Shown here piece after piece: positions 45,271-64,000 of a stretch of DNA of 64,000 nucleotides (position 1 is the stretch's first letter; each line of letters begins with the position of its first letter). Both the position numbers and the translations under genes were made by a program. The notes below the pieces were generated by a model. That model was not told where the DNA came from and made no database searches. It saw nothing but the letters and a program-made list of their open reading frames with translations. Source of the stretch: Actinomycetota bacterium (GTDB taxonomy: Bacteria > Actinomycetota > Actinomycetes > Streptosporangiales > Streptosporangiaceae); NCBI GenBank assembly GCA_027313705.1, contig DAHVDE010000014.1:1-64000 (forward strand), given 5' to 3'.

Positions 45271-45936
45271 ATGGCCGTGCGAGTTCTCATCTGCGACGAA
45301 CTGCCGGTAGTACGGGATGGGCTGCGCACTTTACTTGAGTCAGTCCCCGATATAGAGGTCATCGAGACCACAGGTAACGGCATGGAAGCGATCATGCTCA
45401 GCCGGTCGCTCCGGCCAGATGTCGTCGTCACCGACCTGAAGCTCGAGGGCATTTCCGGCCTGGAGGTGACCCGCAGGCTTACCAAAGAGAACCTGGAACC
45501 GCCGCTTCGCGTGGTCGTGTTCGCGATGAGCGACACCGATGAGACGATGAGCGACGTCCTGCACGCCGGCGCCAGCGGGCTGCTCGGCAAGGATGCCAGC
45601 CTGGCCGATCTGATCTCGGCTATCAGGCTGGCCGCACGCGGCCAGACGATGCTCGCCCCGGTGGTGGCTCAGCGCCTCGTCAACTGGTTCCGTGACCGGC
45701 GCAGCCCGTCAGAGATGGTGCTCGAGCCCATGGTCTCCTCGCTGACTCAGCGGGAGCGTGAGGTGATGCTGCTCATTGCGCGCGGCCTGTCGACCGACGA
45801 GATCGCGCGCGAGCTGACGATCGGCGTCGCGACCGTCCGCACCCACGTGTACCGGGTGCGCTGCAAGCTGGGCGCCAGGGACCGTGCCCAGCTTGTCTCG
45901 CTCGCCTACCGCTCAGGGATCATGCAAGTGGCGTAA
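45271..45936 (+). CDS. NarL/LuxR-family response regulator, probable cluster regulator
   Basis: 221 aa from ATG 45271 (GGGAGG 4-5 nt upstream). Receiver domain residues 1-120: acidic CDE near residue 10, phospho-acceptor Asp in VVVTDLKLEG near 57, and conserved Lys in GLLGKDAS near 107; the usual MPxMDG after the Asp is changed to LKLEGISG. LuxR HTH at about 155-215 with SLTQREREVMLLIARGLSTD then EIARELTIGVATVRTHVYR. No sensor kinase is adjacent. Its 3' end overlaps the acyl-CoA dehydrogenase operon tail-to-tail by 17 bp. It probably controls the NRPS cluster. Confidence 0.88.
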   Translation: MAVRVLICDELPVVRDGLRTLLESVPDIEVIETTGNGMEAIMLSRSLRPDVVVTDLKLEGISGLEVTRRLTKENLEPPLRVVVFAMSDTDETMSDVLHAGASGLLGKDASLADLISAIRLAARGQTMLAPVVAQRLVNWFRDRRSPSEMVLEPMVSSLTQREREVMLLIARGLSTDEIARELTIGVATVRTHVYRVRCKLGARDRAQLVSLAYRSGIMQVA

Positions 45937-47044
45937 GCGAGCCGGCCGCACGGGCGGCGACCGCTGCCGCGAGCCTGCTGGCGCCGACCTCACGCCATAG
46001 CTCACCAGGCCTGCCGTAACGGCAGGGTTCGGCCGCGGCGAGGCGGTAGTAGCGATGCACGGCGAGTTCTGAGGTCATCCCGTGCCCTCCGCACGCCTGC
46101 ATGCAGGTGCGTGCGGTCTCGATGAGCGTCTCCGCCGCGGTCGCCAGCGCCTCGAGCGGCGCGGCAGGTTCCCGCACGGCGGCCGTGCCCGCGCCGCCCG
46201 CGTCGGCCAGCCAGGCGGCGCGGTGCACGAGCATCCTGGCCGCCCGCAGCGAGATCATCGCCTGGGCCAGCGGGAAGCCGACACCCTGAAAGTCGCGCAG
46301 TTTGCTGCCGAACTGCCTGCGGGTGCCCGCGTACCTGGCGGTCCCCTCTAGCATGCCGGCGGCCAGGCCGCACAGGTAGGCTGCCTGCCTGATGCGCGCC
46401 CTCGCCAGGGCGGCCAGGGCGGGCGCGTTCCAGGTGATCAGGTTCCGCTCGCCGATCACGACTCCGCTGAGCCTGACCGCGTGCGGCCAGCCGTCGCCCA
46501 GCCACTTGTAACCAGCGGTACCGGCCGGGACCAGTGCGATGCGGGTCAGGGCGGACGGCTCGGGGAGGCGGCAGGTGACGGCCAGGATGTCGGCGCTCGC
46601 GGCGTCGGCGGTGGCGGTGCCGTTCAGCTCTATGCCACCATCGGTGAATGTCGCGGTGACACCACCCCCAGACCGGGTCAGGTTCTCGAGCCCGGCGGTG
46701 GCGGCGGTGGCCCCGGCCCTCAGGTCCTCGAGCACATCTGGCCGCCCCGCGGCCAGGGCCAGGTCGGCCAGGAAGGCGTGCGCACGGTAAGGGTTGCCGC
46801 AGGCGGCCCGGCCAAGTTCCTCGCTCACCGTGGCACCGGCCATCAGGCCGAGCTCGAGGCCGCCGTGGCCGGCTGGCAGCTCGAAAGCCAGCGCGCTCAG
46901 GTCGCTGAGCACCTGGCTCGCCTGGCTGGCGGGACCGTCGAGCACGGGCGCGCCCCGCACGCCTGGCCGGACGGCGGCGCCGGCCAGGCCGGTGCGCAAG
47001 GCACGGCGCAGCTGCGCCTGCAATGGATCTGGACGCAGGTCCAT
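45920..47044 (-). CDS. Acyl-CoA dehydrogenase-like protein (second of a pair)
   Basis: 374 aa. FAD flavoprotein fold; C-terminal domain RQFGSKLRDFQGVGFPLAQA near residue 245 and QACGGHGMTSELAVHRYYR near 325. Low conservation in the first 100 residues. It starts 1 bp after the stop of the other dehydrogenase and is the last gene of the 14-gene operon. Adjacent unequal pairs usually form alpha/beta heterooligomers that share active sites. In an NRPS cluster they may desaturate an amino acid or acyl group held on a carrier protein. Confidence 0.85.
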   Translation of the reverse strand: MDLRPDPLQAQLRRALRTGLAGAAVRPGVRGAPVLDGPASQASQVLSDLSALAFELPAGHGGLELGLMAGATVSEELGRAACGNPYRAHAFLADLALAAGRPDVLEDLRAGATAATAGLENLTRSGGGVTATFTDGGIELNGTATADAASADILAVTCRLPEPSALTRIALVPAGTAGYKWLGDGWPHAVRLSGVVIGERNLITWNAPALAALARARIRQAAYLCGLAAGMLEGTARYAGTRRQFGSKLRDFQGVGFPLAQAMISLRAARMLVHRAAWLADAGGAGTAAVREPAAPLEALATAAETLIETARTCMQACGGHGMTSELAVHRYYRLAAAEPCRYGRPGELWREVGASRLAAAVAARAAGSLTPLA

Positions 47045-47045
47045 G

Positions 47046-48200
47046 TCAGTTCTCCTGTCCGGCCCGGTCGATGGCCGCCGCCACTAGCTGGAGCATCATT
47101 TCCGAGGTGCCGGCCGACAACGTCACGCCAGGTGCCTCGAGGTAGCCCTCGTCGAGCACGGCGGCCAGGCCCCCTGCCGCACGCTGGGCGGCGGTCGGCA
47201 CGCTGCCCGCCCACCTGGCGATGGAGCCGGCCAGCTCGCCCGCGTGATACCTGGCTATCGCGGCGGAGGTCTCGTCGACCTTGTCCGCCTTGATCTGGCC
47301 AAGTACGTCCCAGGCAAGCAAGTGGCTGGCGTGCAGGCTCGCGCTGTTCCTGCCGATCAGCTCGAGCACGCTATCGCTAGCGTCGCGAGGCACCGGGTAC
47401 TGCTCGGCCAGGCAGGCAAGCGCGGCCTCGAACCAGCGCTCGGCCTTCAGGTAGTAGTCGAGCCCGTTCCGCTCGATAGGCAGGCCCTTGCTCAGCAGCG
47501 CCCACCCTTCGCCTGGCCGGCCAAGCACGCAGTCGGCGGGCACGAAGGCGCCGTCGAGTTCCACCCGGTAGAAAGGCTCATCCCAGATGGTCGGGATCGG
47601 CGATACCGAGATGCCTGGCGTCGCCATGTCCACCATGAACAAGGTGATCCCGGCATACCGCGTATCGCCTTCGCCGGTGCGTGCCGCGCACAGGCTGTAT
47701 GCCGCCAGGTGCGTCTTGAGGCTGAACACCTTCGTGCCGGTCAGCCGGAAGCCGTCGCCCGCAGGTTGCGCCACCGTGGTCAGTGACCCGATGTCGCATC
47801 CGGTGCCCGGCTCGGTGTAGAGGACGCTGACGAAGTGCTCGCCGCGCGCGATCGGCGGCAGGTGCCGCAGTTTCTGCTCCCGGTTTCCGATGGCAAGCAG
47901 GAACTGGCCGACGATCTGCACCGTGCTGATGTGCAAGGTCTCAGGTACTCCGGCCCGCGCCAGTTCCTCGGTGACGATGCCGCCGAAATTGAAGGGCAGG
48001 CCGAGGCCGCCGTACTCGGCCGGCCACTGCGGCGCGAGCAGGTTACGCTCGCCGAGCAGCAGGTGCAGCCGCTGCAATTCCGCGCCGCCGACGTTGTCAT
48101 CGGGCAGGCCGGCCAGCGCCGCCTGTATCTCTGTGCCGCGCAACTCGGCCCTGATCCGGGCCCTGAACTCCTCTTCCGCCGTGGTGAAACCAAAGTCCAT
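47046..48200 (-). CDS. Acyl-CoA dehydrogenase (first of a pair)
   Basis: 384 aa. N-terminal helical domain (WPAEYGGLGLPFNFGGIVTE near residue 59), middle beta domain with YTEPGTGCDIGSLTTVAQ near 128 and GTKVFSL, and a C-terminal helical domain ending with TLSAGTSEMMLQLVAA. The S-A-G-T-S-E segment is the FadE-type variant of the usual catalytic loop. It follows the thioesterase gene with a one-base overlap. Likely removes two hydrogens alpha-beta to a thioester, with FAD. It is more conserved than its partner and presumably provides the catalytic residues. Confidence 0.88.
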   Translation of the reverse strand: MDFGFTTAEEEFRARIRAELRGTEIQAALAGLPDDNVGGAELQRLHLLLGERNLLAPQWPAEYGGLGLPFNFGGIVTEELARAGVPETLHISTVQIVGQFLLAIGNREQKLRHLPPIARGEHFVSVLYTEPGTGCDIGSLTTVAQPAGDGFRLTGTKVFSLKTHLAAYSLCAARTGEGDTRYAGITLFMVDMATPGISVSPIPTIWDEPFYRVELDGAFVPADCVLGRPGEGWALLSKGLPIERNGLDYYLKAERWFEAALACLAEQYPVPRDASDSVLELIGRNSASLHASHLLAWDVLGQIKADKVDETSAAIARYHAGELAGSIARWAGSVPTAAQRAAGGLAAVLDEGYLEAPGVTLSAGTSEMMLQLVAAAIDRAGQEN

Positions 48201-49102
48201 CAGCGGTCACCTCCCGATCTGCTGGCCAGTTCGCTGGCCGCGTCCTCGATAGCCCCGGCCAGCATTGGCAGGACCGGTGGCGTGAATAGCGTGTAGTGGT
48301 CGCCTGGCAGCCGGACGCAGCGGTAAGGTCCGGTCACGACCCGCCGCCAGAGCGCGTCGATCGAATCCGCCTGCTCGGCTACGCAGAGCACGACGGCACC
48401 GCCGAAGGGGCCGGCCGGCCGGTAGGAGAGCAGCCCGAGAGCACAGGACCTGAAGGTCTGGTAGCGCTCGGCAAGCTCGGCATCGGTCAGGGCCGGGTCC
48501 ACGTGCGCGGCCTCGAGCAGCCCGCGCACGCCGGTCACCGCAGGGTCGGCGGCCTGGACCGCAGCCCTGACCGCTGCGTGATCTCGCCCGGCCAGGCGGG
48601 CGAAGTCATAGACGAAGTGACTGCGCACCGTGGACTCGTCGTCCAGGTCCCTGTCGCCGTAGTAGGCCGCGTCGAGCAGCACCACGCTCGGGCGGGTGCC
48701 GGTGGCCGCCTCATGCCGCCGCGCCATCTCGAACGCCAGCGCTCCGCCATGGGACCAGCCGGAGAAGACGCAGGCTGCCGGGTCGGCGACCTTGGCCAGG
48801 GCGGCGAGCGTCCGGCCGGCCACGACTTCCAGCCTGGTAGCCAAGTCAAGGCCGGCGTCGGCCGGATCGGCAGGGAAGCCGATCACGTCGATATCGGGCC
48901 GCAGCGCCCGCACCAGCGGCGTGTAGCAGAACAGCGCGCCGCCTGACGGGTGCGCCAGCACCAGCCTGGCCGGGCCATCGCCTGGCCGCAGCGGCACCGG
49001 CTGATGGTCGGCCCTGGCCGCCGCCCTGGCCCGGCCGGCCTGGAGCTTGGCGTAAAGCGCCCGCCTGGACTCGGACATGGCATCGGCGCGGGACGAGCTC
49101 AC
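48200..49102 (-). CDS. Stand-alone thioesterase of the NRPS cluster
   Basis: 300 aa from GTG 49102, which overlaps the NRPS stop as GTGA; ATG 49078 is an alternative. Alpha/beta hydrolase with LAHPSGGALFCYTPLV near the oxyanion region, the nucleophile GWSHGGALAFEMARR near residue 113, and a C-terminal GDHYTLF holding the His. The sequence is closer to chain-releasing TE domains than to editing type II TEs, because of the PSGGALFCY segment, but this is a weak call. None of the complete NRPS proteins here has its own TE, so this protein may release the product. Confidence 0.88.
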   Translation of the reverse strand: MSSSRADAMSESRRALYAKLQAGRARAAARADHQPVPLRPGDGPARLVLAHPSGGALFCYTPLVRALRPDIDVIGFPADPADAGLDLATRLEVVAGRTLAALAKVADPAACVFSGWSHGGALAFEMARRHEAATGTRPSVVLLDAAYYGDRDLDDESTVRSHFVYDFARLAGRDHAAVRAAVQAADPAVTGVRGLLEAAHVDPALTDAELAERYQTFRSCALGLLSYRPAGPFGGAVVLCVAEQADSIDALWRRVVTGPYRCVRLPGDHYTLFTPPVLPMLAGAIEDAASELASRSGGDR

Positions 49103-52100
49103 GTCGTGTTGCCGTCGTCGAGCAGGCTGCTCACCTGGTCTTCTGGCATGTGCTCCAGCATTTCGAGCAATTCTTCGTCGCTTAGCTGCTCGGCCCGCCT
49201 GGCGTCGATGACGCTGGAGAGGTGAGCCACGGTAGGCGAGGCGAAGAAGTCGGCCAGTGACACCTCGACAGAGAACCTGCGGTTCAGCGCCGACATGAGC
49301 TGTGCCGCCTGGAGGCTGTTGCCTCCGGCCCTGAAGAAGTCGTCGTAGATCCCGACTCGCTCGTTCTTGAGCAGCGGCACGAGCACCTCGGTGAGCAGCA
49401 CCCGCTCGGTGTCGGTGCGAGGCGCGCCATCGGGCGCGGCGGGGCCGGCGGCCAGGCTCAGCTCCGGCGCGGGAAGCTGGCGCTTGTCGACCTTGCCGCT
49501 GCTGGTCAGCGGCAGCTCTTCCAGGACCACGAAGTAGGAAGGGATCATGTAGGCGGGCAGGATCCCGGCCAGGTGGTCGCGCAGTTCTTCGACGTCGGGC
49601 GCCCGGGTACCCGCGGTCACGTAGCCGACCAGGTGGCGCTCGCCTTCTTCGTCGGTCCACGGCTGGGCGGTGACCTGGCCGATGCCGCGGTAGCTTGCCA
49701 TAGCCGATTCGACCTCGCCAAGCTCGATCCGCAGTCCGCGTATCTTGACCTGCTCGTCGATCCGGCCGAGGAACACCAGTTGGCCGTCAGGCTGCCTGCG
49801 CACCAGGTCGCCGGTGCGGTACAGCCTGCCGCCTGGCGCGGTGCCGAACGGGTCGGTCACGAACTTCTCGGCGGTCAGCTCTGGCCTGCGCAGGTAGCCG
49901 CGGGCCAGGCCGGCGCCGCCGATGACCAGTTCGCCTGGCAGTCCGGCGGGCACCAGCCGGAGCTTGTCGTCGAGAACGTGCCCGACGTGATTGGTCATCG
50001 GCAGCCCGATCGGCGGCGATGACGACCAGCTACCAGGGCACTCCGCCACGATCATGGTGACCGTGCACTCGGTCGGGCCGTACCCGTTGAACAGCCGCCT
50101 CCCGACGTTCCACCTGTTCACCAGTTCGCCGCTGAACTCCTCGCCGCCGACGAACGCGATCCGCAGGCTTGAGTAAAGCTCGGGTTCCAGCAGCGGCATG
50201 ACGGTCGGCGGCAGGTCGATCACCGTGATGCCCTCGCCGGCCAGCACGGCGGACAGGCGGCGGAGGTCGAGCCGCTCACTGTCGCCGAGCAGATGCAGCC
50301 GGGCGCCGTTGAGCAGGGAAGCGAAGGTCTCGAACACCGAGACGTCGAAGGTGGCCGAGGCGAAGCCGAGTATGGCGTCCGCGGGCGTCAGGTCGAACAG
50401 GTCCCTGGTCGTGTCGGCGAAGTTGACGACGCTGCGATGCTCGACGAGCACGCCCTTGGGCTGTCCGGTGCTGCCTGAGGTGTAGATCACGTAGGCGACG
50501 TCCTGCGGACCCGCGGCAAGCGGCGGGTTGCCTGCCGCGTGCGCCGCCAGTTCCCCGGCCATGGCGTCCACCGCGAGCAGCGGTGCCGACACTCCGGCGA
50601 GCGCCCCGGTGAGGTCGGAATGGCAGAGCACCGCGGCGAGTCCGGCATCGGCCGCGAGTGCGCTCAGCCTGGCGGGCGGCGCGGCGGTGTCGAGCGGCAC
50701 GTAGGCCGCTCCCGCCTTGAGCGTCGCCAGCATCGCGACGGTCAGGTCGGCGGTGCGGTGCAGGCAGAGCCCGACGAAGGAGCCCTGGCCCGCGCCGTGC
50801 TCGCGCAGGGCGGCGGCCAGCTTGTTGGCCCGCTCGTTGAGCTCGGCATAGCTGAGCCGCTGTTCGCCCGCGGCCAGCGCGAGGTGCCCTGGCGATCGCC
50901 TGGCCTGCTCTTCGAACTCGGCCACGATGGTGGTCTCGCGCACCGGCCGCATCGGGCCGCTGCCGATCGCCAGCAGTTCCTCGCGTTCCGCGGCGGTCAG
51001 CAATTGCACGCCTTCGATCGGCACGTCAGGCGCGGCCACCAGGTTCTTGAGCATCTCGTGGTAGTGCCCGGCGTGGCGCAGCATCGTCTGCTGGTCGAAC
51101 AGGTCAGTGTTGAACTCGATCGCCAGTACCGCATCGCCCTCGCGCTCGGCGATGTTCCAGCTCATGTCGAGCCGCGAGGTGACGATGTTAGGTATCTGGT
51201 ACTCCATCGTGACCTCGGGCAGCGTCAGCGGCGCCCCGGCGTTCTGCAGCGCGAAAGTAATCTGGAATACCGGCGACCTGGACGCGTCACGCGGCGGGTT
51301 GACCGCGTCGACGAGCTTGCCGAACGGCAGGTCGCTGTGCGCGATGGCGTCGAGTATCACCGGCTTGAGGCGGTTCACCAGCTCACGGAACGTCGGGTTG
51401 CCTGACAGGTCGGCGCGGAGCACCATCATGCCGATGAAGAACCCGATCACCGGCTCGACCGATGAATAGCGCCGGTTCGCGTTGGGTGCGGCGATGACCA
51501 GGTCGTCACTGCCGGAGCAGCGCTGCAGCCAGGTGAAGTAGGCGGCGACCCAGACCGTGAACGGGGTGACGCCCTCTTCCCTGGCAAGCGCCCTGATGCC
51601 GCGCAGCGCCTCGCCGCCGATGGTGGTGCTGACCTGCGAGCCGTTGAAACTGACCGAGTCCGGCCTTGGCCGGTCGGCAGGGAATTCCAGCGTCTGCAGG
51701 CCGGCGAGCTGGTCGCGCCAGTAGCCGGCCAGCTCGTCCATGTTGCCTGACAGCCACTCCCGCTGCCAGGCGCAGTAGTCCGGGTACTGCACGTTGAGCT
51801 CGGGTAGCTGCGGCTCCGTGCCCTCCACCCGCGACCGGTACAGTTCGGCAAGCTCGCCGCTCAGCAGCCCGAGCGACCAGCCGTCGAACACGATGTGATG
51901 CACGTTGAACACGAACAGGTAGTCATCGGGCGCGAGCCTGAGCAGGTAGGCACGCCAGAGCGGCAGCTTGGTCAGGTCGAGCGGTGCGACGATCTCGGCG
52001 TCGAGCATCTCCTGCGCGCGCCGCTCGCGCTCGGCGAGGGTGTCGCCAGGCACGTCGATCACCGGGATCTCGGCGGGCACGTGGTCGGCGATCACCTGGA

Positions 52101-52425
52101 CGGGACCGTCTTCGCGCTCGGCGATCGCCGTCCGCATCGCCTCGTGCCTGGCCACCACCCCGGCAAGCGCGGCGCGCAGCGCGTCGATGTCGAGATTGCC
52201 GCGCACCCGGTGAAAGAGCGGCACGCTGTAGACCGGCCGGCCTGGCGCCAGCCGGTCAAGGAACCACAGGCTTTCCTGCGCGTGCGAAAGCGGCGCGGGC
52301 CCGGTGTCCCTGCGGGGCTGCGGGCCGCGGGTGGCCACGCCTTCGACCTGGGCGCGGAGCTGGGCGAGGAACTTGGCTCGCCGCTCCTCTGGCAGGTTGG
52401 CTAGCCGCTTCATCATGTCGGTCAT
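49099..52425 (-). CDS. Nonribosomal peptide synthetase, C-A-PCP, unusual substrate code
   Basis: 1108 aa. C domain with canonical HHIVFDG near residue 173; A domain about 490-980 with A3 YTSGSTGQPKG near 648 and A10 SSGKVDK near 975; carrier domain AGGNS near 1035 followed by an acidic tail. Specificity residues read D-V-F-D-F-G-G-V-T-K, which matches no common amino acid code I know. The acidic residue at the GrsA-278 position often pairs with a basic or amino-bearing side chain. The gene follows the LysK-like gene with ATGA overlap, at the end of the carrier-protein pathway, so its substrate may be the DADH-type diamino acid. A TE gene follows. Confidence 0.93.
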   Translation of the reverse strand: MTDMMKRLANLPEERRAKFLAQLRAQVEGVATRGPQPRRDTGPAPLSHAQESLWFLDRLAPGRPVYSVPLFHRVRGNLDIDALRAALAGVVARHEAMRTAIAEREDGPVQVIADHVPAEIPVIDVPGDTLAERERRAQEMLDAEIVAPLDLTKLPLWRAYLLRLAPDDYLFVFNVHHIVFDGWSLGLLSGELAELYRSRVEGTEPQLPELNVQYPDYCAWQREWLSGNMDELAGYWRDQLAGLQTLEFPADRPRPDSVSFNGSQVSTTIGGEALRGIRALAREEGVTPFTVWVAAYFTWLQRCSGSDDLVIAAPNANRRYSSVEPVIGFFIGMMVLRADLSGNPTFRELVNRLKPVILDAIAHSDLPFGKLVDAVNPPRDASRSPVFQITFALQNAGAPLTLPEVTMEYQIPNIVTSRLDMSWNIAEREGDAVLAIEFNTDLFDQQTMLRHAGHYHEMLKNLVAAPDVPIEGVQLLTAAEREELLAIGSGPMRPVRETTIVAEFEEQARRSPGHLALAAGEQRLSYAELNERANKLAAALREHGAGQGSFVGLCLHRTADLTVAMLATLKAGAAYVPLDTAAPPARLSALAADAGLAAVLCHSDLTGALAGVSAPLLAVDAMAGELAAHAAGNPPLAAGPQDVAYVIYTSGSTGQPKGVLVEHRSVVNFADTTRDLFDLTPADAILGFASATFDVSVFETFASLLNGARLHLLGDSERLDLRRLSAVLAGEGITVIDLPPTVMPLLEPELYSSLRIAFVGGEEFSGELVNRWNVGRRLFNGYGPTECTVTMIVAECPGSWSSSPPIGLPMTNHVGHVLDDKLRLVPAGLPGELVIGGAGLARGYLRRPELTAEKFVTDPFGTAPGGRLYRTGDLVRRQPDGQLVFLGRIDEQVKIRGLRIELGEVESAMASYRGIGQVTAQPWTDEEGERHLVGYVTAGTRAPDVEELRDHLAGILPAYMIPSYFVVLEELPLTSSGKVDKRQLPAPELSLAAGPAAPDGAPRTDTERVLLTEVLVPLLKNERVGIYDDFFRAGGNSLQAAQLMSALNRRFSVEVSLADFFASPTVAHLSSVIDARRAEQLSDEELLEMLEHMPEDQVSSLLDDGNTT

Positions 52426-53558
52426 AGTTGGCTCCCTTCCAAGCCTTCAGTGCGGCTGGCCACGGCGGGCGTGGCCACGGTGTCGCTCAGCTCGCCGAGA
52501 GCGTGCGACAGGACCGCAACGCCCCTGATGTAGTCGGCCAGCATGATGTGCTCGTCGTCGGCGTGGTCGAGCTTGCTGTCTCCAGGCCCGTAGGTCGCCA
52601 TCGGCACGTCCCAGACCTCGGCCAGCGTGTTCATGTCTGAGGTGGCGGTCTTGACCATGACGGAAGGCTGGCCGAGTTGCTTCCTGATGCCCGCGGTCAG
52701 CGCCCGCACCGCCGGGTTGCGCCGGTCGGCACGGCACGCGGCGACCGAGTTGACGATCGCCAGGTCCCCGGCGGTCAGTCTGGACCTGACCGAGCCGACG
52801 AAGCCGGCTACATCGAACCCTGGCGGCGTGCGCACGCTCACGGCGGCGACGGCGCGGCTGGTGTCCGCTGAGATCGAGTCGAGGGTGATGCCAGGCTTGT
52901 CGAACGCGGTGTGGTCGGCATCGCCGAGCACGTCGTTGAGCACCCGCCAGCAACTAGCCGCCAGCTCGGAGGCCTTGGGCGCCGGATTGCTCGGGTGGGT
53001 GGGCGCGCACTCGACGCTATAGCGGAGGTCGAGCTTGCCTTTGTAGCCGAGCACCACGGTGAAGCAACCGCTCGGCTCGCCGATGATCACCGCGTCCGGC
53101 TTGGCGAAGGTGTTCCTGATCGCGACCGCGCCCCGCGAGCACGGCGTCTCCTCCTCGACCACGCCGGCCACGATGATCTTCCCGGTGAACTCGGTGGCGC
53201 TGGCCGCCGCGCAGATCATGGCCGCGAGCGGTCCCTTGGCGTCGGCTGCGCCTCGCCCGTAAAGCCTGCCGCCCGCCGACCGAACCGGGACATGGCCCTG
53301 GATCGTGTCCAGGTGCCCGAGCAGCATGATCACCGGGCCAGGGCCGCGTTCGAGCATGCCGATCACGTTGCCCGCGCCGTCGACGTAAGACCAGAACCCG
53401 AGTCCGGCCATGGCCTCCGCGAGATAGGCGGCGAGGTCCATCTCACGGTAGGAAGGCGAAGGGATCTCCAGCATCTGGCGCAGCAGCCCGACGGCGTAGG
53501 CCTCCCTGACCCTGCCCTCGGCGTTGAATACCCGGCCAGCGGTGACCCGGCCGCTCAT
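52422..53558 (-). CDS. M20-family hydrolase, LysK/ArgE-like (release from carrier protein)
   Basis: 378 aa from ATG 53558 overlapping the kinase stop (ATGA). Metal-binding motifs of M20/DapE/LysK: LLGHLDTIQGHVPV near residue 66, GRGAADAKGPLAAMI near 88, the catalytic EEETPCSRG near 120, GEPSG near 147, and a final ligand His in KLDHADDEHIM near 343. In Thermus and archaea LysK cleaves the isopeptide bond that joins the product amino acid to LysW. Here it should free the finished amino acid from the 54-aa carrier encoded in the same operon. Confidence 0.88.
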   Translation of the reverse strand: MSGRVTAGRVFNAEGRVREAYAVGLLRQMLEIPSPSYREMDLAAYLAEAMAGLGFWSYVDGAGNVIGMLERGPGPVIMLLGHLDTIQGHVPVRSAGGRLYGRGAADAKGPLAAMICAAASATEFTGKIIVAGVVEEETPCSRGAVAIRNTFAKPDAVIIGEPSGCFTVVLGYKGKLDLRYSVECAPTHPSNPAPKASELAASCWRVLNDVLGDADHTAFDKPGITLDSISADTSRAVAAVSVRTPPGFDVAGFVGSVRSRLTAGDLAIVNSVAACRADRRNPAVRALTAGIRKQLGQPSVMVKTATSDMNTLAEVWDVPMATYGPGDSKLDHADDEHIMLADYIRGVAVLSHALGELSDTVATPAVASRTEGLEGSQL

Positions 53559-56339: not shown

Positions 56340-56500
56340 TCGCCCCAGTCCTCCTCGACCTCTGGCGCGAGTGCCAGGGTGACCGGGTCGAGCGAGAGGA
56401 TCTCGAGTTCGCTACGGCAGTCAGCGCACTCGAGGATCTCGCTCAGGCGAGACTGGGACGGGATGGCTACTGCTACATCGCAGACGGGGCAGCTGATCAT
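56336..56500 (-). CDS. LysW-like amino-group carrier protein (AmCP), 54 aa
   Basis: ATG 56500 to TGA 56336. The protein opens MISCPVCDVAVAIP, continues LSEILECADCRSELEILSLD and ends EVEEDWGE. The two CxxC pairs (C4, C7, C25, C28) form the zinc knuckle, and the EDWGE tail with Glu54 as last residue matches Thermus LysW exactly in length and attachment motif. The carrier masks the alpha-amino group of the substrate through its terminal Glu. It overlaps the transketolase stop upstream (ATGA) and the ligase start downstream (GTGA). As it is only 54 codons long it is easily missed by annotation. Confidence 0.95.
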   Translation of the reverse strand: MISCPVCDVAVAIPSQSRLSEILECADCRSELEILSLDPVTLALAPEVEEDWGE

Positions 56501-57468
56501 GATCTACTCCAGGCGAGCGGTTGTGATTCCAGTACGGCGCGCACCCGGCCGGCGATGCCCTGGGCATCGACTCCGTGGCGCTGGAGAATCTCCTCTTGGC
56601 ACCCGACGCCTGGTGCAAGCACGTCGGGCAGGCCGATCCGCAGGACGCGGCGCGGCACGGACTCGGCGAGTACCTCGGCGACCAGGCCGCCGAGGCCGCC
56701 TGTGGTCCTGTGCTCCTCCACCGTGACGACCAGGGCCGACCTCGCCGCGCAGTCGAGCAGGGTGGCCAGGTCGAACGGGCGCAGGGTGTGCACGTTCAGA
56801 ACGCAGGCGCCGATGCCTGCGCGGGCAAGCAGTTCCGCCGCGCTGAGCCCGGCAAGCACGGGAAGCGGACCGCAGCACGCGATCACCACGTCGTCGCCGT
56901 CGCGCAGTCGCTGTACCTGGCCGATCACCGCCTGCCCTGAGCCGGCCGGCAGCGGCGCCGTCGCCTTCCTGCCCAGGCGTACATAGAGCGGGCCGTCGAT
57001 CGCCGCGGCCTGCTCGACGACGCTGGCCGCGGCGCTGGCGTCGGCGGGAACCACGACGGTCATGGCGGGCAGTGCTCGCATCACGGCGAGATCTTCGAGC
57101 GCGAAGTGGGTGAACCCGAGATGCCCGGCGGCCACGCCGCCGTGGGTCGCCATGATCCGCACCGGCAGCTCGTTGTAGGCGATGTTGATCTTGACGGATT
57201 CCAGCGCCCGGGTGCTCGCGAAGGTGGCCATCGTGTTGACGAACGGCACCAGCCCTGTCCTTGCCATCGCGGCGGCGGCGGCCATCGCGGTGTGCTCGGC
57301 GATGCCGAGGTCGAGGTACCGGCACGCGGCCGGGCCGAAGTCCGTTCCCGTGAACAGGCCGGTGTCGGTGTCCAGGCACACGACCCTGGGGTCGGCCGCC
57401 ATCAGGGCGACCAGGCGGTCCCGGTAGGCGTGCCTGGTGGCGATGGCCTGGCTCGGCTCGCCGCTCAT
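56497..57468 (-). CDS. Transketolase-like protein, C-terminal (pyrimidine-binding) subunit
   Basis: 323 aa from ATG 57468 with AGGAG upstream. Pyrimidine domain with the catalytic Glu in YLDLGIAEHTAMAAAAAMA near residue 56 and ATHGGVAAGHLGFTHFALED near 112; C-terminal transketolase domain from about 200. Together with the adjacent N-terminal subunit it makes a split thiamine-diphosphate transketolase. In vazabitide A biosynthesis such a pair moves a two-carbon hydroxyacetyl unit onto carrier-bound glutamate semialdehyde. Its stop overlaps the carrier gene. Confidence 0.9.
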   Translation of the reverse strand: MSGEPSQAIATRHAYRDRLVALMAADPRVVCLDTDTGLFTGTDFGPAACRYLDLGIAEHTAMAAAAAMARTGLVPFVNTMATFASTRALESVKINIAYNELPVRIMATHGGVAAGHLGFTHFALEDLAVMRALPAMTVVVPADASAAASVVEQAAAIDGPLYVRLGRKATAPLPAGSGQAVIGQVQRLRDGDDVVIACCGPLPVLAGLSAAELLARAGIGACVLNVHTLRPFDLATLLDCAARSALVVTVEEHRTTGGLGGLVAEVLAESVPRRVLRIGLPDVLAPGVGCQEEILQRHGVDAQGIAGRVRAVLESQPLAWSRS

Positions 57469-58319
57469 GATCGTCTCCTGATATGGGCGGCGAGGGCGGC
57501 GCGCGCCCGGCCGTGCTGGCGTTCGCTGAGCGTGGCGTAGTGGCTGGCGACCTGCCCGGCGATGAACCCGACGCCATGCCCCTTTTGGGTGTGCGCGATC
57601 AGCGCGCTCGGCTTGCCTGCCTGCCAGGGCACGCCGGTCAGGGCTCCAGCCAGGGCCGCCTGGTCGTGGCCGTCGCACTCGCGCACGCTCCAGCCGAACG
57701 CGCTCCAGCGGTCGGCAAGTGCTCCTGGCGCGCCCAGGTCGGCGATCTGGCCGCCTAGCTGCAGACCGTTCGCGTCCACGATCGCGGTGAGCGAGTCGGC
57801 ACCCTGGGCGGCCGCGCACCCGGCCGCTTCCCAGCACGAGCCTTCCTGCAGTTCGCCGTCGCCGGTGAGCACGTAGACGCGCCCCGGCCGGCCGGTGATC
57901 CTGGCGGCAAGCGCGAACCCGAGGCCGAGCGCCAGGCCGTGACCGAGTGATCCGGTCGGCATCTCGACGCCGGGCACGGCCCGCACTGGGTGACCGGCAA
58001 GCCGGCTGCCTGCCGCGCCGAAACTGGCCAGTTCCGTCTCGGGGAGGAATCCGCGCTCGGCCAGCACCGCGTAAAGCGCGAGCGCCGCGTGCCCCTTGCT
58101 GAGCAGGAAGATGTCCCTGTCAGGGTCGTCGGCATCGCGCGGGCTGACCTTGAGCACCTGAAAATAGAGCACGGTCAAGATGTCCGCGACCGAAAGCGAA
58201 CCGCCGAGGTGGCCGCCTTCTGCGCCGCCGCACATGTCGATGATCAGGCCGCGCAGCCGGTCGGCGACCTCGACCAGATCGCTGCGGCCCGGCTCCGTCT
58301 TCGTCAAGATCGCGCTCAT
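57465..58319 (-). CDS. Transketolase-like protein, N-terminal (ThDP-binding) subunit
   Basis: 284 aa from ATG 58319, overlapping the aminotransferase stop. ThDP/Mg motif [19 protein letters not shown] near residue 143 through [10 protein letters not shown], with [19 protein letters not shown] near 37 and [13 protein letters not shown] near 65. It binds the diphosphate and metal. It pairs with the next gene to give full transketolase; split forms are common in archaea and in secondary metabolism. Dedicated to the carrier pathway by its place between the aminotransferase and the carrier gene. Confidence 0.9.
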
Positions 58320-59659
58320 TGCTTCGCCCGCGCCAGCATCGCGACGGTGTCCAGGTGCCGCCATACCTTCTCGAAGGCGGCCGCGTACTGCGCGAGCGTG
58401 TCGCGCGCGGCCGGATTCAGGTGGCGTTTCTGCAAGGTAAGCGAGTCGGCGAGCACCGCACGCGCGACCGGGCAGTCTGGTCTTGGCTCAGGTGCCGCCG
58501 CGGCCCATGGGTAGCCGCCGCCGAAGCCGGTCCGTTCGGTGAAGACCTGCTGATCGGGTAGCGGCATGAGCTGGTACCTGGACATCGGCACGCCTTCTGC
58601 CCGCAGCAGCCTGCGTAGCGCATCGCGCATCGCCGCCGGGCTCACCCCGGTCAGGCCGGCTGCTGCCGGGTCGAACCGCAGCCGCAGGATGTGCCAGGCG
58701 TGCACGGTGTCCTGCCGTACAGCGGGCACCCGCACTCCCGGCAGGGCGCTCAGCCGGTCAAGGAAGGCGGTCACCGACTCGTGCCGCGCGCTGGCGTCGG
58801 CGTCGAACCGGTCAAGCTGCGACAGGGTGAAGGCGGCCTGCACGGCGCTGAACTTGGCGTTCCAGCCGAGCTGGTAGGAGATGTAGGCACGGTCCTTGCC
58901 CGGCTCGATCACCTCGCCGAACTGGCGGCCCATCCGGGCGTATTCGGCCAGTCTTGGATCGTCGGTGGTGATCAGCCCGCCCTCGCCGCAGGTCGGCAGG
59001 TTCTTGGTGACCTGGAGGCTGAACGCCGCCATGTCGCCGAGCGATCCCGCCTCGCGACCGCGGTAGCGGGCGCCTTGCGCCTGGGCGGCGTCTTCGACCA
59101 CCGCCAGGCCGTGCCTGCTGGCGATCTTGGCGATGGCGGCCATGTCGGCGACCTGGCCGTGCAGGTGCACGGGCATGATCGCGGCCGTGCGGGGGGTGAT
59201 CGCCGCCTCGATCGCCGCCGGGTCGATGGTGAAATAGACCGGGTCGATGTCGGCGAAAACCGGCACCGCCATCTGGTGCACCGGCGCCAGCCCGGTCGCG
59301 ATGAAGGACAGCGCGGGTACGATCACCTCGTCACCAGGCCCGACCCCCAGTGCGGCCAGGCACAGGGCAAGCGCGATCGTGCCATTCGAGGTGGCGACGC
59401 AGTGGCCGGTGCCGCATCGCTGCGCCCAGCGGCGCTCAAGCTCGCTGACCGGCGTGTCGCCGTCGGAGTCAGATACCAGCGGCCCGTCGAGCGCGGCCAG
59501 CACGGCCGCCCGGTCATCGTCGGTGATGACCGGCCAGGTAGTGCCGAGCTTAGGGTCGGCTACGGCTCGCTGGCCGCCGAAAATGGCAAGCCGGCCAGGG
59601 TCGGCCGCCAGATCCTGGCGCGCCTGGCGCGGCCTGGCCTGATCTCCGGTCGTGGTCAA
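58316..59659 (-). CDS. DegT/DnrJ/EryC1-type PLP aminotransferase
   Basis: 447 aa from TTG 59659, overlapping the upstream stop as TTGA. Fold type I motifs: [20 protein letters not shown] near residue 84, [29 protein letters not shown] near 185, and the PLP lysine in [20 protein letters not shown] near 212. In the pathway it should aminate the C6 ketone made by the transketolase step to give the second amino group of DADH. It belongs to the sugar-aminotransferase-like group that acts on keto groups, not alpha-keto acids. Confidence 0.9.
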
Positions 59660-60786
59660 AGCAGCTCCACCGCTTCGTCGAGGCTGGCCAGTGCGAGGTC
59701 ATAGCAGTGCCGCAGCCAGGCCGCGTGTCTGGCCAGGTCCCGCGTGCAGGCGGCCGGGTCGGCAACCCCGTGCGCGGCGGTCATCCGCAGCCCGGTCCAG
59801 GCATGCGCGGTCGCCTCGACCAGCCGCCCGGCTTCGCGCAGCGCGAGCGTGCCGCCGCATGGTGCTTGCTGGCCATTCCCGATGCCGTACCTGCGGAGCA
59901 ACTCCGCGTGCAAGCTGGTCTGTGCCTGCATGCCCCAGCCGAACGGGTAGGTCTGCGCGAGCAGCCCGCTGTCGCCGCTCGCGCAGCCGTCGAGCAGGGC
60001 GGCGAGGAAGCTGTCGAGCCCGGCAAGGCCGGTCAGGTCGCCGCCAGGCGCCCGGGCCGCGCGATAGCCGGCCAGGTTCGCGCCGAGCACGGTTCGCAGC
60101 ATGGCCGGGTCGAGCTCGGGAAACGGCGTCCCGATCGTCATGGTCATGAATCGCCTGTCGATCTTGGCGGCACTGAAGAACACGTCCTGCGAGTCCGCCG
60201 GATTGGCCGAGCTCGCGGCCCTGATGAAATCGGCGACCGGGATAGGGCCGAGGAACGCGGGCGGCATCGCGTCGCTGACGTAGACCTCTCCCGCGCCGAG
60301 ATCGACCCCGAAGACCACGACCAGGTGCGCCGCGTGCACGTCGCCGAACGCCGGCCGGAACGGCAGGTAGAAGTTGTCGACCGCGGTGATGACGAGCGTG
60401 CCCGCCTCGAGCGCGGTGATGATCTCGGCCATCGCGCTGGCGGGCTCGTCCGCTGGTGCCGGGGCGGACTGGCACCAAGCCGAGCTGACCGGGTGGTGCG
60501 GCGCGAGGCTGGCCGCGAGGTCGCCGGGGACGGCGCAGGGGTAATAGAACTCCTCGGTGCGCACGTCACCTGGCCGGTACCTGAACTCCCAGTGCGCGCC
60601 GAGCACCTCGAGCGGGTCGTGCCCGGCGTGCGCGAGCACGGTGGCGAACGTCGACTGCAGGCAGCTCACCAGGTCACGGCACCAGTGCGGGACACCTTCG
60701 GCGACCTGCACGGGCGCGACCAGCACGGGCGCGGCCGGTGCGGAACCGTGCTCCCTGGTAGTGTCCGCCCGATATGTGATGGTCAT
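59656..60786 (-). CDS. BtrH-N-like protein, candidate partner in aziridine formation
   Basis: 376 aa from ATG 60786, overlapping the 205-aa gene as ATGA. The first 200 residues resemble the N-terminal domain of butirosin BtrH, a papain-like fold: [20 protein letters not shown] near residue 40, [20 protein letters not shown] near 135, and [15 protein letters not shown]. BtrH transfers an acyl chain from a carrier protein to an amine. By gene order next to the transketolase pair and aminotransferase it corresponds to the slot of the aziridine-forming enzyme pair of vazabitide and azinomycin (Vzb10/11, AziU3/U2). Whether it is a transferase or the aziridine synthase subunit is open. Confidence 0.72.
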
Positions 60787-61400
60787 GGCCGCGTCCCGGC
60801 GGCCGACTGGTGGTCTGGTGCCGTCTGCAAGGTCAGCGCGAACACGTGAATGGCGACATTCCTCGGCAACCGGAGGCCGGTGAGCGGCTGGCCTCGGGTG
60901 ACCGGAACGCGCTGGCGCCATATCAGCGCGCTCAGCCCTGGCTGGACGTGATGCGGGTAATGCATCTGGCCGGTCAGGCAGGCCTGGTGCTCGCCGAACC
61001 TGGCAGGCGCGGCCCAGAAGTCAGACACGCGCAGCGCCTCGAAGTCCACGTCGCCTTCGGTGAAGTGCAGCGCGACGGTGTCCTCGGCCCGGCGTTCCGC
61101 CGCCGCCAGCAGGTGCAGCCAGTCGTAACGGCCGGGCGGCACGAAGATCATCTGACCGGCGCAGCGGATGTTGTCGCCTGCCGGGGTCGGCGCGGGGAAG
61201 TCGAAAGGGATTTTGGCAACCTCGATCCTGCTGCCGGGCGCTGGCAGGTGCCCGGCGGGAAACGAGTTGCCCCAGACGTTGAACCGGCCCGCGCTGGTAT
61301 CGCTCGCCGAGGAAATGGCGCGATTATTGAAGTGCTCGCCAATCGGCATCGGCAGGTAGGTGAACGTGACACCTTCCATGCGCACATTTGTCAGCTGCAC
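60783..61400 (-). CDS. Uncharacterised 205-aa protein, first gene of the carrier operon
   Basis: GTG start at 61400 with a TACTCT -10 box 7 nt before it, suggesting a leaderless transcript and hence the operon start; ATG 61379 is an alternative. No motif recognised. Beta-rich with VTFTYLPMPIGEHFNNRAIS near residue 12, FNVWGNSFPAGHLP near 40 and RYDWLHLLAAAERRAEDTV near 95. It overlaps the BtrH-like gene by 4 bp, which suggests the two products work together. Possible second subunit of an aziridine-forming complex (inference from gene order). Confidence 0.75.
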   Translation of the reverse strand: MQLTNVRMEGVTFTYLPMPIGEHFNNRAISSASDTSAGRFNVWGNSFPAGHLPAPGSRIEVAKIPFDFPAPTPAGDNIRCAGQMIFVPPGRYDWLHLLAAAERRAEDTVALHFTEGDVDFEALRVSDFWAAPARFGEHQACLTGQMHYPHHVQPGLSALIWRQRVPVTRGQPLTGLRLPRNVAIHVFALTLQTAPDHQSAAGTRP

Positions 61401-61413: not shown

Positions 61414-61637
61414 GGCAGGCGGAATCTTCCCTGACGTCCCAGGCGGAGTGATCATCGGCAGCAGCGTGCCGTTGACTTTCCCGGCCCCTTCCCATCGCGG
61501 TAATGACGGCGGCGGCGAAAAGTAATCAGCGTGCTTACGTGCGATCGCGGGCCTTTTGCGACAGGCACTTACCACGTACAGTGGCCACGTTCGGCGGCCC
61601 GCAGGCCGCGTGCCGATCAGTTCCGCGGAGACGGCTC

Positions 61638-62387
61638 ATGGGACGTCGGATCTGGCCGGGCGGCCAGCCTGGCATGCTCGCCCTGTGGAGTGCGCCCAGG
61701 TGCCGGTCGACGGCCTTCGCGCGGATGATCGCCGAGCGCGGCGACTTCACCACCTTGCACGAGCCGTTCTCGCACCTGAAAAACTTCGGCGTGACGCAGG
61801 TTGGTGACGTGGCCGCGCAGGACGAACCCGAGCTGATCGCGGCGATCCGCTCGCTGGCTGACGGCGGGCCGGTGTTCTTCAAGGACACGACCGACTACCA
61901 TTACCCCGGCCTGCTCGCGGACGATGCCTTCTTGTCCGGCGCCTCGCACACCTTCATCGTCAGGCATCCGGCCGCCGCCATTGCCTCGCATTACGCGCTG
62001 AACCCGGCGCTGCGGCTGGACGAGATCGGATTTGCCTGGCTGGCCGAGATCTTCGCCGCGGTCAAGGCGGCCAGCGGCACTGTGCCCGTCGTGGTCGACT
62101 CTGACCTGCTGATACAGCAGCCATTCGAGGTCATCACGGCCTATTGCGAGGCGGTCGGCATGCCCTTCGTCCCGGCCGCCTTGCGCTGGACGCCTGGGAT
62201 GCAGACGGAGTGGCAGCGGACCAGCCGCTGGCATGAGTCGACGAGCGGCACGACCGGCTTCGCTTCCCTGCCAGGTCATGACGAGGAAGCGTGCTCCCTG
62301 GTAACAGGTCACCCTGTGCTGGCCGGTTACCTCGAATACCACCTGCCGTTCTATGAGGAGCTGCGCCGGGCGGCGCTGCGCGTCTAA
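61638..62387 (+). CDS. Sulfotransferase-family protein (PAPS-dependent)
   Basis: 249 aa from ATG 61638 with GCGGAG 8 nt upstream. The 5'-phosphosulfate-binding loop is LWSAPRCRSTAFARMI near residue 17, followed by the catalytic-region HEPFSHL; the 3'-phosphate-binding segment is FIVRHPAAAIASHYAL near 106. It transfers sulfate from PAPS to a hydroxyl. It is divergent from the carrier operon. In vazabitide and azinomycin aziridine formation proceeds by loss of sulfate from a sulfated hydroxyl, so the likely target is the C7 hydroxyl of a DADH derivative. Substrate assignment is inference. Confidence 0.85.
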   Translation: MGRRIWPGGQPGMLALWSAPRCRSTAFARMIAERGDFTTLHEPFSHLKNFGVTQVGDVAAQDEPELIAAIRSLADGGPVFFKDTTDYHYPGLLADDAFLSGASHTFIVRHPAAAIASHYALNPALRLDEIGFAWLAEIFAAVKAASGTVPVVVDSDLLIQQPFEVITAYCEAVGMPFVPAALRWTPGMQTEWQRTSRWHESTSGTTGFASLPGHDEEACSLVTGHPVLAGYLEYHLPFYEELRRAALRV

Positions 62388-62415
62388 CAGCACCGCGTCT
62401 CACAGCACCGCGTCT
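62388..62415 (+). repeat. Short tandem repeat after the sulfotransferase gene
   Basis: CAGCACCGCGTCT occurs at 62388-62400 and 62403-62415 (15-bp period), directly after the TAA. A third, partial copy (GCGCGTCTAA) overlaps the stop codon. No function evident; 62416-62676 shows no gene. Confidence 0.6.
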
Positions 62416-62676
62416 GGCGGAACCGGTACCCGGTGGCGGCCAGGTGGCAGGCTTGCCGTGCTAAAAGACCGGGTAAATGCGGTAGTTACCGCGCCAGCCT
62501 GGCGTCAGCGAGGCGATTACCCGGCGCTTTAAAGCTAAGCGAAATACGGGCCATGCTTTTCACGGCCGTGCGGACGCCTATCGCTGTCAGGTCGCCCTAT
62601 CCTGCCCGGGAAGTCGCGATAACCGCCCCGATCAAGTGGCTGAATTTTCCAGGCGCGCTTCGCACGGGAGGTCAGC

Positions 62677-64000
62677 ATGAGCAGTGCCCGCGAGCAGGTT
62701 CAGGCCGGGAGCGATGCCAGCCGCAGCGCGATGTCGGCGTCGCAGCTGGCGATCTGGCTCGCCGATCGCGCGTTCGTCGGCGGTGCCGCCTACAACCTGG
62801 GCTGGATGATCGACCTGGATGGCAGCCTCGATGCCGATGCGCTCGGGCTGGCGCTCGGGGCGGTGACGGCCAGGCACGAGGCGCTCCGCATGGCGGTGCT
62901 CGAGGTCGACGGGCAGTTCATGATCAGGACGGACCCGCCGAGACCGGACGCGGAGTTCAAGCTCGCCGTGGTCGACGTGCCTGAAGCGGAGGCGGACGCG
63001 CTGGCCAAGGCCGTCGTGGTCCGGCCGTTCGACCCGGACGCGGCGCCGCTTTGGCGAGCCGAGCTGCACCGGCTGGGACCGCGAAGGCACCGGCTCGTCT
63101 TCGTCGCGCATCACGTGATCGCCGACACGGCGACGGTTGCCCTCGTGCTCGCCGACATCGCGGCGGCTTACCGGCCAGGGGAGCGGCACCCTGCCCGCCT
63201 GCCTGTGGCCAGGGCGTTCACCGAGTACATCGCCTGGGAGCGTGACTTCGCCGGCCGCCATGACGGCGCCGTCGCTATCGCGTACCTGACCGGGCAGGTC
63301 AGCGAGGTGCCGCCGCTTGAGTTGCCTGCCGACCGTCCGCGCAATCCCGAGTCGGCCAGGCCAGGCGCGATCTTGCGGTGCAGCATCGCCGCGGCCGACG
63401 CGGACTCGCTCAGGGAACTCGCCCGCAGGCAAGGAGCCACCTTGCAGCACGTGCTGCTTGCCTGCTACGCGACGATGCTGCACAGGTTCACGGGCCGGGA
63501 TGAGCTGCTCGTGGGTGTCCCTGTCTCGCTCAGGCGCGGTGGCTGGGCCGACTGCGCCGGGTTGTTCGTCAACACCGTGCCGATCCGGGTCAGCCTGCGG
63601 GATAACCCGCAACTGCGCGACCTGGTCTCCCAGGTCCGCAGCACCGTATTCGCGGCCATCGGCGCCGCGCCTGCGCCGATCACCGAGGTCGTGGCGGCGG
63701 CGCGCAGGCTGCCAGGACACGCCGGCCCGCTGTACCAGGCCACGTTCGGCCTGACCCCACGCGCCAGGATCGGCCTTCACCTGCCGCAGGTCAGGGCCGA
63801 GATTCGCGGTGTCTACCCGGACCAGGCCAAGTTCGATCTGCACCTCGAAGTCGCTGAGCACGGTCCTCAAGAGCCGCTGACCTGCGCGCTGGAGTACGAC
63901 GCCGACCTGTTCGAAGCGGCGACGGCGCGGCGGTTCGCCGACGGGTTCGCCGCGATCGCCAGGGCTGCCTGCCGCTCACCCGAGCAGGTAGTCGGCGCGA
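62677..64000 (+). CDS. Nonribosomal peptide synthetase, condensation domain at N-terminus, runs off window
   Basis: The frame opens at ATG 62677 (GGGAGG 62666-62671) and has no stop before the window end, giving at least 441 aa. The condensation domain spans residues about 18-430: SASQLAIWLADRAFVGGAAY, active site AHHVIADTATVAL near 148 (HHxxxDT, final Gly replaced by Thr), LPADRPRNPE, and FTGRDELLVGVPVSLRRG near 270. An adenylation or other domain should follow. Fourth synthetase of the cluster, separated from the others by the operon and sulfotransferase, so the cluster extends beyond this window. Confidence 0.9.
   Translation, partial: MSSAREQVQAGSDASRSAMSASQLAIWLADRAFVGGAAYNLGWMIDLDGSLDADALGLALGAVTARHEALRMAVLEVDGQFMIRTDPPRPDAEFKLAVVDVPEAEADALAKAVVVRPFDPDAAPLWRAELHRLGPRRHRLVFVAHHVIADTATVALVLADIAAAYRPGERHPARLPVARAFTEYIAWERDFAGRHDGAVAIAYLTGQVSEVPPLELPADRPRNPESARPGAILRCSIAAADADSLRELARRQGATLQHVLLACYATMLHRFTGRDELLVGVPVSLRRGGWADCAGLFVNTVPIRVSLRDNPQLRDLVSQVRSTVFAAIGAAPAPITEVVAAARRLPGHAGPLYQATFGLTPRARIGLHLPQVRAEIRGVYPDQAKFDLHLEVAEHGPQEPLTCALEYDADLFEAATARRFADGFAAIARAACRSPEQVVGA

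Follow-up and report, generated by a model that had tools for sequence, protein, structure and literature searches.

A candidate gene cluster for a nonribosomal peptide with an azabicyclic amino acid in a Streptosporangiaceae bacterium

A carrier-protein operon with aziridine-synthase and oxidase homologues

The window, the whole stretch of DNA analysed here, comprises bases 1-64000 of contig DAHVDE010000014.1 (C113 below; 114514 bp) from the 5.3 Mb draft genome of an Actinomycetota bacterium of the family Streptosporangiaceae (GenBank assembly GCA_027313705.1). It contains a gene cluster in which an amino-group carrier protein (AmCP) pathway of the LysW type is joined to nonribosomal peptide synthetases (NRPSs) built of condensation (C), adenylation (A) and peptidyl carrier protein (PCP) domains. 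Fourteen genes on the minus strand follow one another between 61400 and 45920 as a single, tightly coupled run in which neighbours are spaced by -13 to +8 nt; the start codons of the operon genes are our choice. The plus strand carries a sulfotransferase and NRPS4 on the right of the run, and NRPS1, NRPS2, an exporter and a regulator on its left. The run, in its own order, and the sulfotransferase divergent from it are listed below, with PDB matches to the first two proteins found by phmmer.

60783-61400, minus: AziU2 homologue, 205 aa (PDB 7wuw_A AziU2, E 1.4e-57; 8gs1_A Azi28, E 1.2e-57)
59656-60786, minus: AziU3 homologue, 376 aa (Pfam BtrH_N PF14399; PDB 7wuw_C AziU3, E 2.4e-70)
58316-59659, minus: DegT-type pyridoxal-phosphate aminotransferase (Pfam DegT_DnrJ_EryC1, E 2e-87)
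57465-58319, minus: transketolase, N-terminal half (Pfam Transketolase_N, E 3e-43)
56497-57468, minus: transketolase, C-terminal half (Pfam Transket_pyr, E 4e-30; Transketolase_C, E 1e-21)
56336-56500, minus: LysW-type carrier, 54 aa, with zinc-ribbon cysteines and C-terminus EEDWGE (Pfam PF21344 Zn_ribbon_LysW, E 5e-13)
55458-56339, minus: LysX-type ATP-grasp ligase (Pfam LysX_preATP_grasp, RimK)
54415-55470, minus: LysY/ArgC-type phosphate reductase (TIGR01850, 340.1 bits, cut-off 233.6)
53555-54406, minus: LysZ-type kinase (NF010659 [LysW]-aminoadipate kinase, 229.6 bits, cut-off 223)
52422-53558, minus: LysK-type M20 hydrolase (PDB 4q7a, E 2.6e-70; 5xoy [LysW]-lysine hydrolase, E 2.9e-62)
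49099-52425, minus: NRPS3, C-A-PCP (Pfam), A-domain code DVFDFGGVT, candidate module for the aziridine/azabicycle amino acid
48200-49105, minus: discrete thioesterase (TE) with a GWSHG motif, start uncertain (Pfam Thioesterase, E 4e-19)
47046-48200, minus: ACAD2, acyl-CoA-dehydrogenase-like (PDB 8hk0_A, Fic32-33 complex, E 8.1e-127)
45920-47044, minus: ACAD1, acyl-CoA-dehydrogenase-like (PDB 8hk0_C, E 4.3e-75; next match E 1.8e-16)
61503-62387, plus: sulfotransferase (Pfam Sulfotransfer_5, E 5e-18)

The genes at 59656-60786 and 60783-61400, which a preliminary description of this DNA had overlooked, are adjacent and homologous over most of their length to AziU3 and AziU2. Kurosawa et al. are said to have found in 2022 that these two proteins are the subunits of the azinomycin aziridine synthase, which reportedly works by sulfate elimination. 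The AziU3 homologue is 46% identical to the azinomycin enzyme and keeps 40 of the 41 columns with a conservation of 95% or more among 81 relatives, while the AziU2 homologue, which matches no Pfam family, keeps 28 of 29 such columns (79 relatives). We dropped BtrH-type acyl transfer as a function for the former, as its match to AziU3 spans residues 29-371 of 376. The sulfotransferase retains all 40 of its conserved columns (51 relatives) and had no PDB sequence match up to E 0.01. For these counts, relatives shorter than 280 (AziU3), 150 (AziU2) and 200 aa (sulfotransferase) had been dropped beforehand. Azinomycin is a DNA-alkylating antitumour agent according to PMC9570651, in which its aziridine pathway is summarised.

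At the far end of the run, ACAD2 and ACAD1 are two differing subunits that each match one chain of PDB entry 8hk0, 'Crystal structure of Fic32-33 complex from Streptomyces ficellus NRRL 8067', with 54% and 49% identity, respectively, to the printed parts of chains A and C. An AlphaFold model of ACAD2 (mean pLDDT 83.7) was structurally closest to the same entry (Z 47.0, root-mean-square deviation 2.6 over 373), with the runner-up at Z 37.3. The pair adjoins NRPS3 and its TE.

Between these two blocks lie the carrier with its C-terminal Glu, the LysX-, LysY-, LysZ- and LysK-type enzymes, and, in the same operon, the split transketolase and the DegT aminotransferase (48-68% identical to the copies listed in loci with AziU3). 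LysW is single-copy in the genome; the cluster LysY/ArgC is a second copy, next to a separate, better-scoring argC on contig C54. The M20 hydrolase exceeds TIGR01902 (278.8 bits, cut-off 163.1) and reaches 330.4 bits against NF003367 [LysW]-lysine hydrolase, below that model's cut-off of 363. Among the named genes, the best Pfam E-values extend from 5e-13 (the 54-aa LysW) to 1e-96 (the condensation domain of NRPS3), and because of this range and the recurrence of similar sets in other genomes, we do not regard the gene set as a product of chance.

The preliminary description had assigned the LysW (EDWGE tail), LysX, LysY, LysZ, LysK, split transketolase and DegT genes to one operon, and a TE, two acyl-CoA dehydrogenases and a sulfotransferase to the cluster; Pfam and PDB matches bear out these assignments. 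Its reading that 2,6-diamino-5,7-dihydroxyheptanoic acid (DADH) is built on the carrier is supported by this gene set, in which the transketolase and DegT genes are syntenic with AziU3-type clusters. It had also counted at least four NRPS proteins in 45920-64000. Four do exist, but that interval holds only NRPS3 and the start of NRPS4, NRPS1 and NRPS2 being to its left, and the MbtH and cytochrome P450 genes described below lie outside it as well.

Adenylation codes, flanking genes and the proposed pathway

Three further NRPS proteins, each C-A-PCP by Pfam, accompany NRPS3.

36789-40211, plus: NRPS1, A code DAWFLGHVV (Leu-like)
40208-43642, plus: NRPS2, A code DVWHLSLID (Ser)
62677-65820, plus: NRPS4, first 441 aa inside the window (L002:2677-5820), A code DALFIGGTF (Val-like)

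Codes were read against a GrsA ruler. Those of NRPS1 and NRPS4 come from larger alignments, a first and smaller reading having left a gap at position 278. We take DVWHLSLID to be the textbook Ser code, and the Leu-like and Val-like substrates are likewise presumed.

Related loci were collected by a pattern-seeded scan of named genomes with an AziU3 alignment, which gave the best 80 of 86 relatives (loci L047-L126) and may omit records near the window's own genome. Stretches of up to ~21 kb were fetched for each, and the counts given here refer to these stretches. AziU2 was found in 79 of the 80 loci, the sulfotransferase in 53, an ACAD2 homologue in 50 and a P450 in 20, while 51 carried at least four of LysX, LysY, LysZ, transketolase N and DegT. 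Seven loci are azinomycin-like (AziU3 78-94% identical to the printed PDB sequence) and 15 are ficellomycin-like (8hk0_A copies of 73-88%, with chain C copies of 56-75% in 14 of them). On a separate note, locus L122 (2047-2949), on a contig of 4.9 kb that is assigned to Candidatus Melainabacteria, perhaps through misbinning, combines AziU3/U2 and MbtH with a gene resembling NRPS3.

In the AziU3 tree, a quick one with SH-aLRT support only and a warning of long branches, the window groups with L047, L048, L052 and L053 (SH-aLRT 95), outside the azinomycin-like and ficellomycin-like sets. Three of these, L047, L052 and L053, are referred to as sister clusters below. Synteny and NRPS3 identity (54-61%) instead place the operon nearest the ficellomycin-like loci, and the cluster therefore looks like a mosaic. 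Among the 394 genomes of a class sample, NRPS3 identity is 57-61% in two of the ficellomycin-like type that share the operon, and no other match with E up to 1e-200 exceeds 45%. NRPS4 had no match above 39% among those listed in 16 relatives' genomes and is uninformative as a landmark. Closer to home, a LysW match was observed in one other (G440, below cut-off) of the five genomes of the genus, the window's own included; the G440 locus (L046) was rejected as a close relative, its LysZ, LysY and LysX being only 31-39% identical.

Of the AziU3 loci, 61 include at least one A domain, and 46 of these carry the NRPS3 code in the form DVFDFGGV[T/A], which was read in 50 of 81 A domains. As a control we took 26 NRPS matches from the class sample and excluded the window's own and three in AziU3 loci (G173, G133, G197). 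The remaining 22 matches were covered by 20 stretches, each of 17-20 kb (a G162 match is truncated at the end), which gave 54 A-domain pieces, with one L161 domain counted as two. Two of the 54 carried the code, both in L175, which itself has AziU2/U3 and DegT; none of the 52 A domains in the other 19 control loci did. The near-codes DVSDFGGVT (L159) and DVFESGGVA (L158) were seen in loci with ACAD pairs. The genome of the former, G275, has an AmCP operon on one contig (C106, L032) and the ACAD pair, a sulfotransferase and the near-code on another (C89). The string DVFDFGGV was not printed in the open-licence papers searched.

The genes flanking the NRPSs, inside the window and to its right on C113, are as follows.

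43730-45076, plus: major facilitator superfamily (MFS) exporter (Pfam MFS_1; copies of 41-42% beside the three sister clusters)
45253-45936, plus: LuxR-type response regulator (Pfam; copies of 54-67% beside the three sister clusters, and copies beside ficellomycin-type loci L062, L071, L144 and L145)
C113:65821-66036 (L002:5821-6036): MbtH (Pfam), directly after NRPS4
C113:66033-67545 (L002:6033-7545): discrete PCP and LanB-like gene (PF04738, C-terminal end), frameshifted, between MbtH and the P450
C113:67553-68812: cytochrome P450
C113:69638-72370: LuxR-family regulator

The closest copies of the P450 are one beside ACAD1 in L084 (57% identity) and one in L085 (50%), those of the other 18 P450-holding loci not exceeding 42%; it may therefore act on the azabicycle unit rather than on NRPS4. 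Its PDB matches are led by CYP125MRCA (E 6e-80) and 4l0e, 'P450 monooxygenase' (E 2e-63). We take the latter to be P450sky, a hydroxylase of carrier-bound amino acids, which is suggestive only as to substrate.

The LanB-like pieces had no strong match in the AziU3 loci, and their best matches were in the AmCP loci L037 and L038 (E 2e-4 and 5e-4). L037 belongs to G161, of the same family as the window's genome, where an AmCP operon (M20, LysZ, LysY, LysX, LysW, transketolase, DegT) runs into two Lant_dehydr_C genes and one Lant_dehydr_N gene (L037:6140-18028 and L176:1542-2093, minus strand); L038 is similar. Upstream of it is a small reading frame whose end resembles the leader and core of a ribosomally synthesised and post-translationally modified peptide (RiPP), so that the G161 locus is a possible AmCP-RiPP hybrid. 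Farther from the cluster, positions 23361-26242 of the window encode an XhoI-type restriction endonuclease and then, on the opposite strand, an Eco57I-type methylase, and C113:77851-78687 (L002:17851-18687) is a reading frame with a TNT-type domain (PF14021).

Taken together, these genes make it very probable that the cluster produces a short nonribosomal peptide with a 1-azabicyclo[3.1.0]hexane (ABCH) amino acid as its warhead. Because AziU2/U3 and a Fic32-33-type pair are found beside the carrier pathway genes, each known catalysed step from Glu to ABCH is, judged by sequence, represented by a homologue here, the sulfotransferase included. In the proposed pathway, LysX would attach Glu to the C-terminal Glu of LysW, and LysZ and LysY would convert the side chain of the carrier-bound Glu to the semialdehyde. 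The split transketolase would then add two carbons, and DegT would aminate the resulting carrier-bound ketose at C6 to give carrier-bound DADH, which the M20 hydrolase would release. Sulfation of the C7 hydroxyl by the sulfotransferase would provide a leaving group, which the C6 amine would displace on the AziU3/U2 homologues to form the aziridine, a reactive three-membered ring. NRPS3 would load this amino acid, and on its carrier domain the Fic32-33-type pair would oxidise the bond between Calpha and Cbeta, allowing a bond from the aziridine nitrogen to C3 to close the second ring. Other residues would come from NRPS1 (Leu-like), NRPS2 (Ser) and NRPS4 (Val-like, with MbtH), and the P450 may hydroxylate a carrier-bound unit, either the ABCH residue or another. 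The TE would release the peptide, probably with ABCH at the C-terminal end because NRPS3 adjoins the TE; the MFS protein would serve export and LuxR regulation. The reactions, the timing of release, the module order, the product and its activity, the place of ABCH and the role of the P450 are what we infer from these genes.

To our knowledge, few ABCH natural products are known. All of the Glu-to-ABCH homologues except the sulfotransferase stand here in one coupled run, joined to a module set (Leu-like, Ser and Val-like plus the ABCH code) that was not found in the fetched stretches of the 80 AziU3 loci, in keeping with the preliminary view that the modules differ from those of known products. 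The same view held that the cluster makes a new azabicycle peptide: AziU3/U2, the Fic32-33-type subunits and the ABCH code argue for the azabicycle, while its being new is something we infer. The wider proposal couples an ABCH peptide class not yet isolated (Leu-like, Ser, Val-like and C-terminal ABCH, P450-hydroxylated) with DVFDFGGV[T/A] as a general code for aziridine amino acids, and we consider it evenly balanced between true and false. If it is true, the A domain by itself could suffice to detect actinobacterial NRPSs that load this warhead, and a warhead-associated code makes the question of which module loads the aziridine amino acid directly testable biochemically.

Evidence against an ABCH product and alternative explanations

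Several observations weigh against an ABCH peptide as the product. LysW and LysX exceed their Pfam cut-offs but fall below the strict NCBIfam ones (LysW 51.3 bits for TIGR01206, cut-off 53.2, and 56.5 for NF041070, cut-off 75; LysX 261.7 for TIGR02144, cut-off 275.6). While HHxxxD is kept in all four C domains, the next residue is H, A or T, not G, in three of them. No PF06224 match lies on C113, and self-resistance by an in-cluster AlkZ-type glycosylase was rejected on that ground; five matches are present elsewhere in the genome. The ACAD step is not universal, because the sister clusters, despite AziU3/U2 and the ABCH code, have no ACAD pair in their fetched flanks. The code itself was missing from the first-fetched stretch of 15 of the 61 A-domain-holding loci. 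Wider flanks revealed it in three of these (L047, L052, L053), five are azinomycin-like and show only DFWSVGMVH, and seven (L096, L099, L103, L104, L111, L113, L117) had no ABCH code within the fetched stretch. Finally, the discrete PCP and the LanB-like gene are both interrupted by frameshifts, several in all, among open neighbours, and the right flank may be partly decayed.

These frameshifts (66033-67545) are the ground for supposing that the whole cluster is partly decayed and makes nothing, or a truncated peptide only. We consider this unlikely. Every gene of the 14-gene operon is open, as are those for the four NRPS proteins, MbtH and the P450. The LanB-like pieces, lacking strong matches in the AziU3 loci, carry no sign of being essential, and a draft genome may contain sequence errors.

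It is more doubtful still that a new host here makes an ABCH compound already described (ficellomycin, azinomycin or vazabitide A), even though the arrangement of NRPS3, the TE and the dehydrogenase pair matches that of ficellomycin-type loci, where NRPS3 identities are 54-61%. The dehydrogenase pair is 54% and 49% identical to Fic32-33, against 73-88% for the 8hk0_A copies in 15 of 80 loci, and AziU3 is 46% identical to the azinomycin enzyme, against 78-94% in seven of 80. The AziU3 tree also sets the window apart from both sets. The 10 ketosynthase matches in the genome all lie off C113, which hence has no azinomycin-type naphthoate polyketide synthase. The two genome matches to PF02274 (arginine deiminase/amidinotransferase) are likewise elsewhere, leaving C113 without such a gene for a guanidine, although ficellomycin may use another family. 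As for vazabitide A, the three loci putatively of its type (L107, L108, L126) have a DALW[VL]GGTF module, and L107 and L108 have two ABCH-code modules within the fetched stretch.

About equally improbable is that DADH is made and the final unit is not an aziridine but a pipecolate-type ring, a hydrazone as in s56-p1 or an opened aziridine. AmCP pathways supply several products, according to PMC9303977, and aziridines could be opened later. AziU3/U2, the sulfotransferase and the Fic32-33-type pair are nevertheless all present, and the conserved residues of AziU3, AziU2 and the sulfotransferase were checked.

Thermus and some archaea use LysWXYZK-type genes as their primary route, and LysW matches occur in control genomes of this kind, but a primary lysine or arginine operon beside an unrelated NRPS cluster deserves almost no credence, given the separate argC on C54, the translational coupling to AziU2/U3, NRPS3 and the TE, and similar arrangements in other actinobacteria. 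The preliminary description had raised two doubts, that the homologues might group with primary lysine/arginine genes and that the transketolase and aminotransferase might be unrelated to Vzb7-9-type proteins. That argC and the single-copy LysW speak against the first, and the synteny of both enzymes with AziU3-type clusters speaks against the second.

Comparison with known systems

With the ficellomycin type, the cluster shares the block NRPS3-TE-ACAD2-ACAD1, seen in many of the 15 loci (some stretches are cut), as well as the M20 hydrolase, LysX, sulfotransferase, AziU2/U3, DegT, split transketolase, LysW and the A code DVFDFGGVT. The window differs in having its carrier, aziridine and ABCH genes in a single minus-strand run, in its lower identities for NRPS3 (54-61%) and both oxidase subunits, and in its three further C-A-PCP proteins and P450; no P450 homologue was listed in the fetched stretches of the 15 loci. 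By the identity of its subunits to Fic32-33 (54%/49%), the predicted system is not ficellomycin.

The seven azinomycin-like loci all have AziU2/U3, LysX, the sulfotransferase, a P450 and ACAD2, as the window does, with ACAD1 in six and LysZ and the M20 hydrolase in two. In five of them, a Thr-like DFWSVGMVH module lies close to AziU3 and the fetched stretch contains no ABCH code. Without a ketosynthase gene on C113, the cluster is, as far as its genes tell, not that of azinomycin.

For vazabitide A, comparison was made with the vzb-like 'cluster 3' of S. kitasatoensis by its description in PMC12690601. That cluster shares with the window a route to DADH on an amino-group carrier, predicted for the window, as well as one Val or Val-like module and a P450. 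It is described as having two A domains of 'unclear specificity', 90% identical, plus Thr and Val, whereas the window combines a single ABCH-code module with Ser and Leu-like ones. The ABCH code may explain these two domains.

The sister clusters are those of Actinocrispum wychmicini (L047/L135/L136), Streptomyces seoulensis A01 (L052/L146) and Streptomyces sp. NRRL F-6131 (L053/L148). They share with the window the codes DAWFLGHVV (identical to NRPS1 in L136, L146 and L148), DVFDFGGVT and a Ser code, DVWH[LVI]SL[IV]D, along with MFS, LysW and LuxR neighbours. Unlike the window, they have Leu-like, ABCH, DVRHFALLA and Ser modules and a TE all in one direction. In L146, the module with DAWFLGHVV has no C domain and shares its protein with a C-A module that occupies the position of the ABCH code; DVRHFALLA, Ser and the TE come next. 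NRPS1 of the window, by contrast, has a C domain. The Val-like NRPS4 and the ficellomycin-type oxidase block set the window apart from all three. The cluster belongs to the AziU3/AmCP kind and is probably a new relative of those for the DNA-attacking antibiotics ficellomycin and azinomycin.

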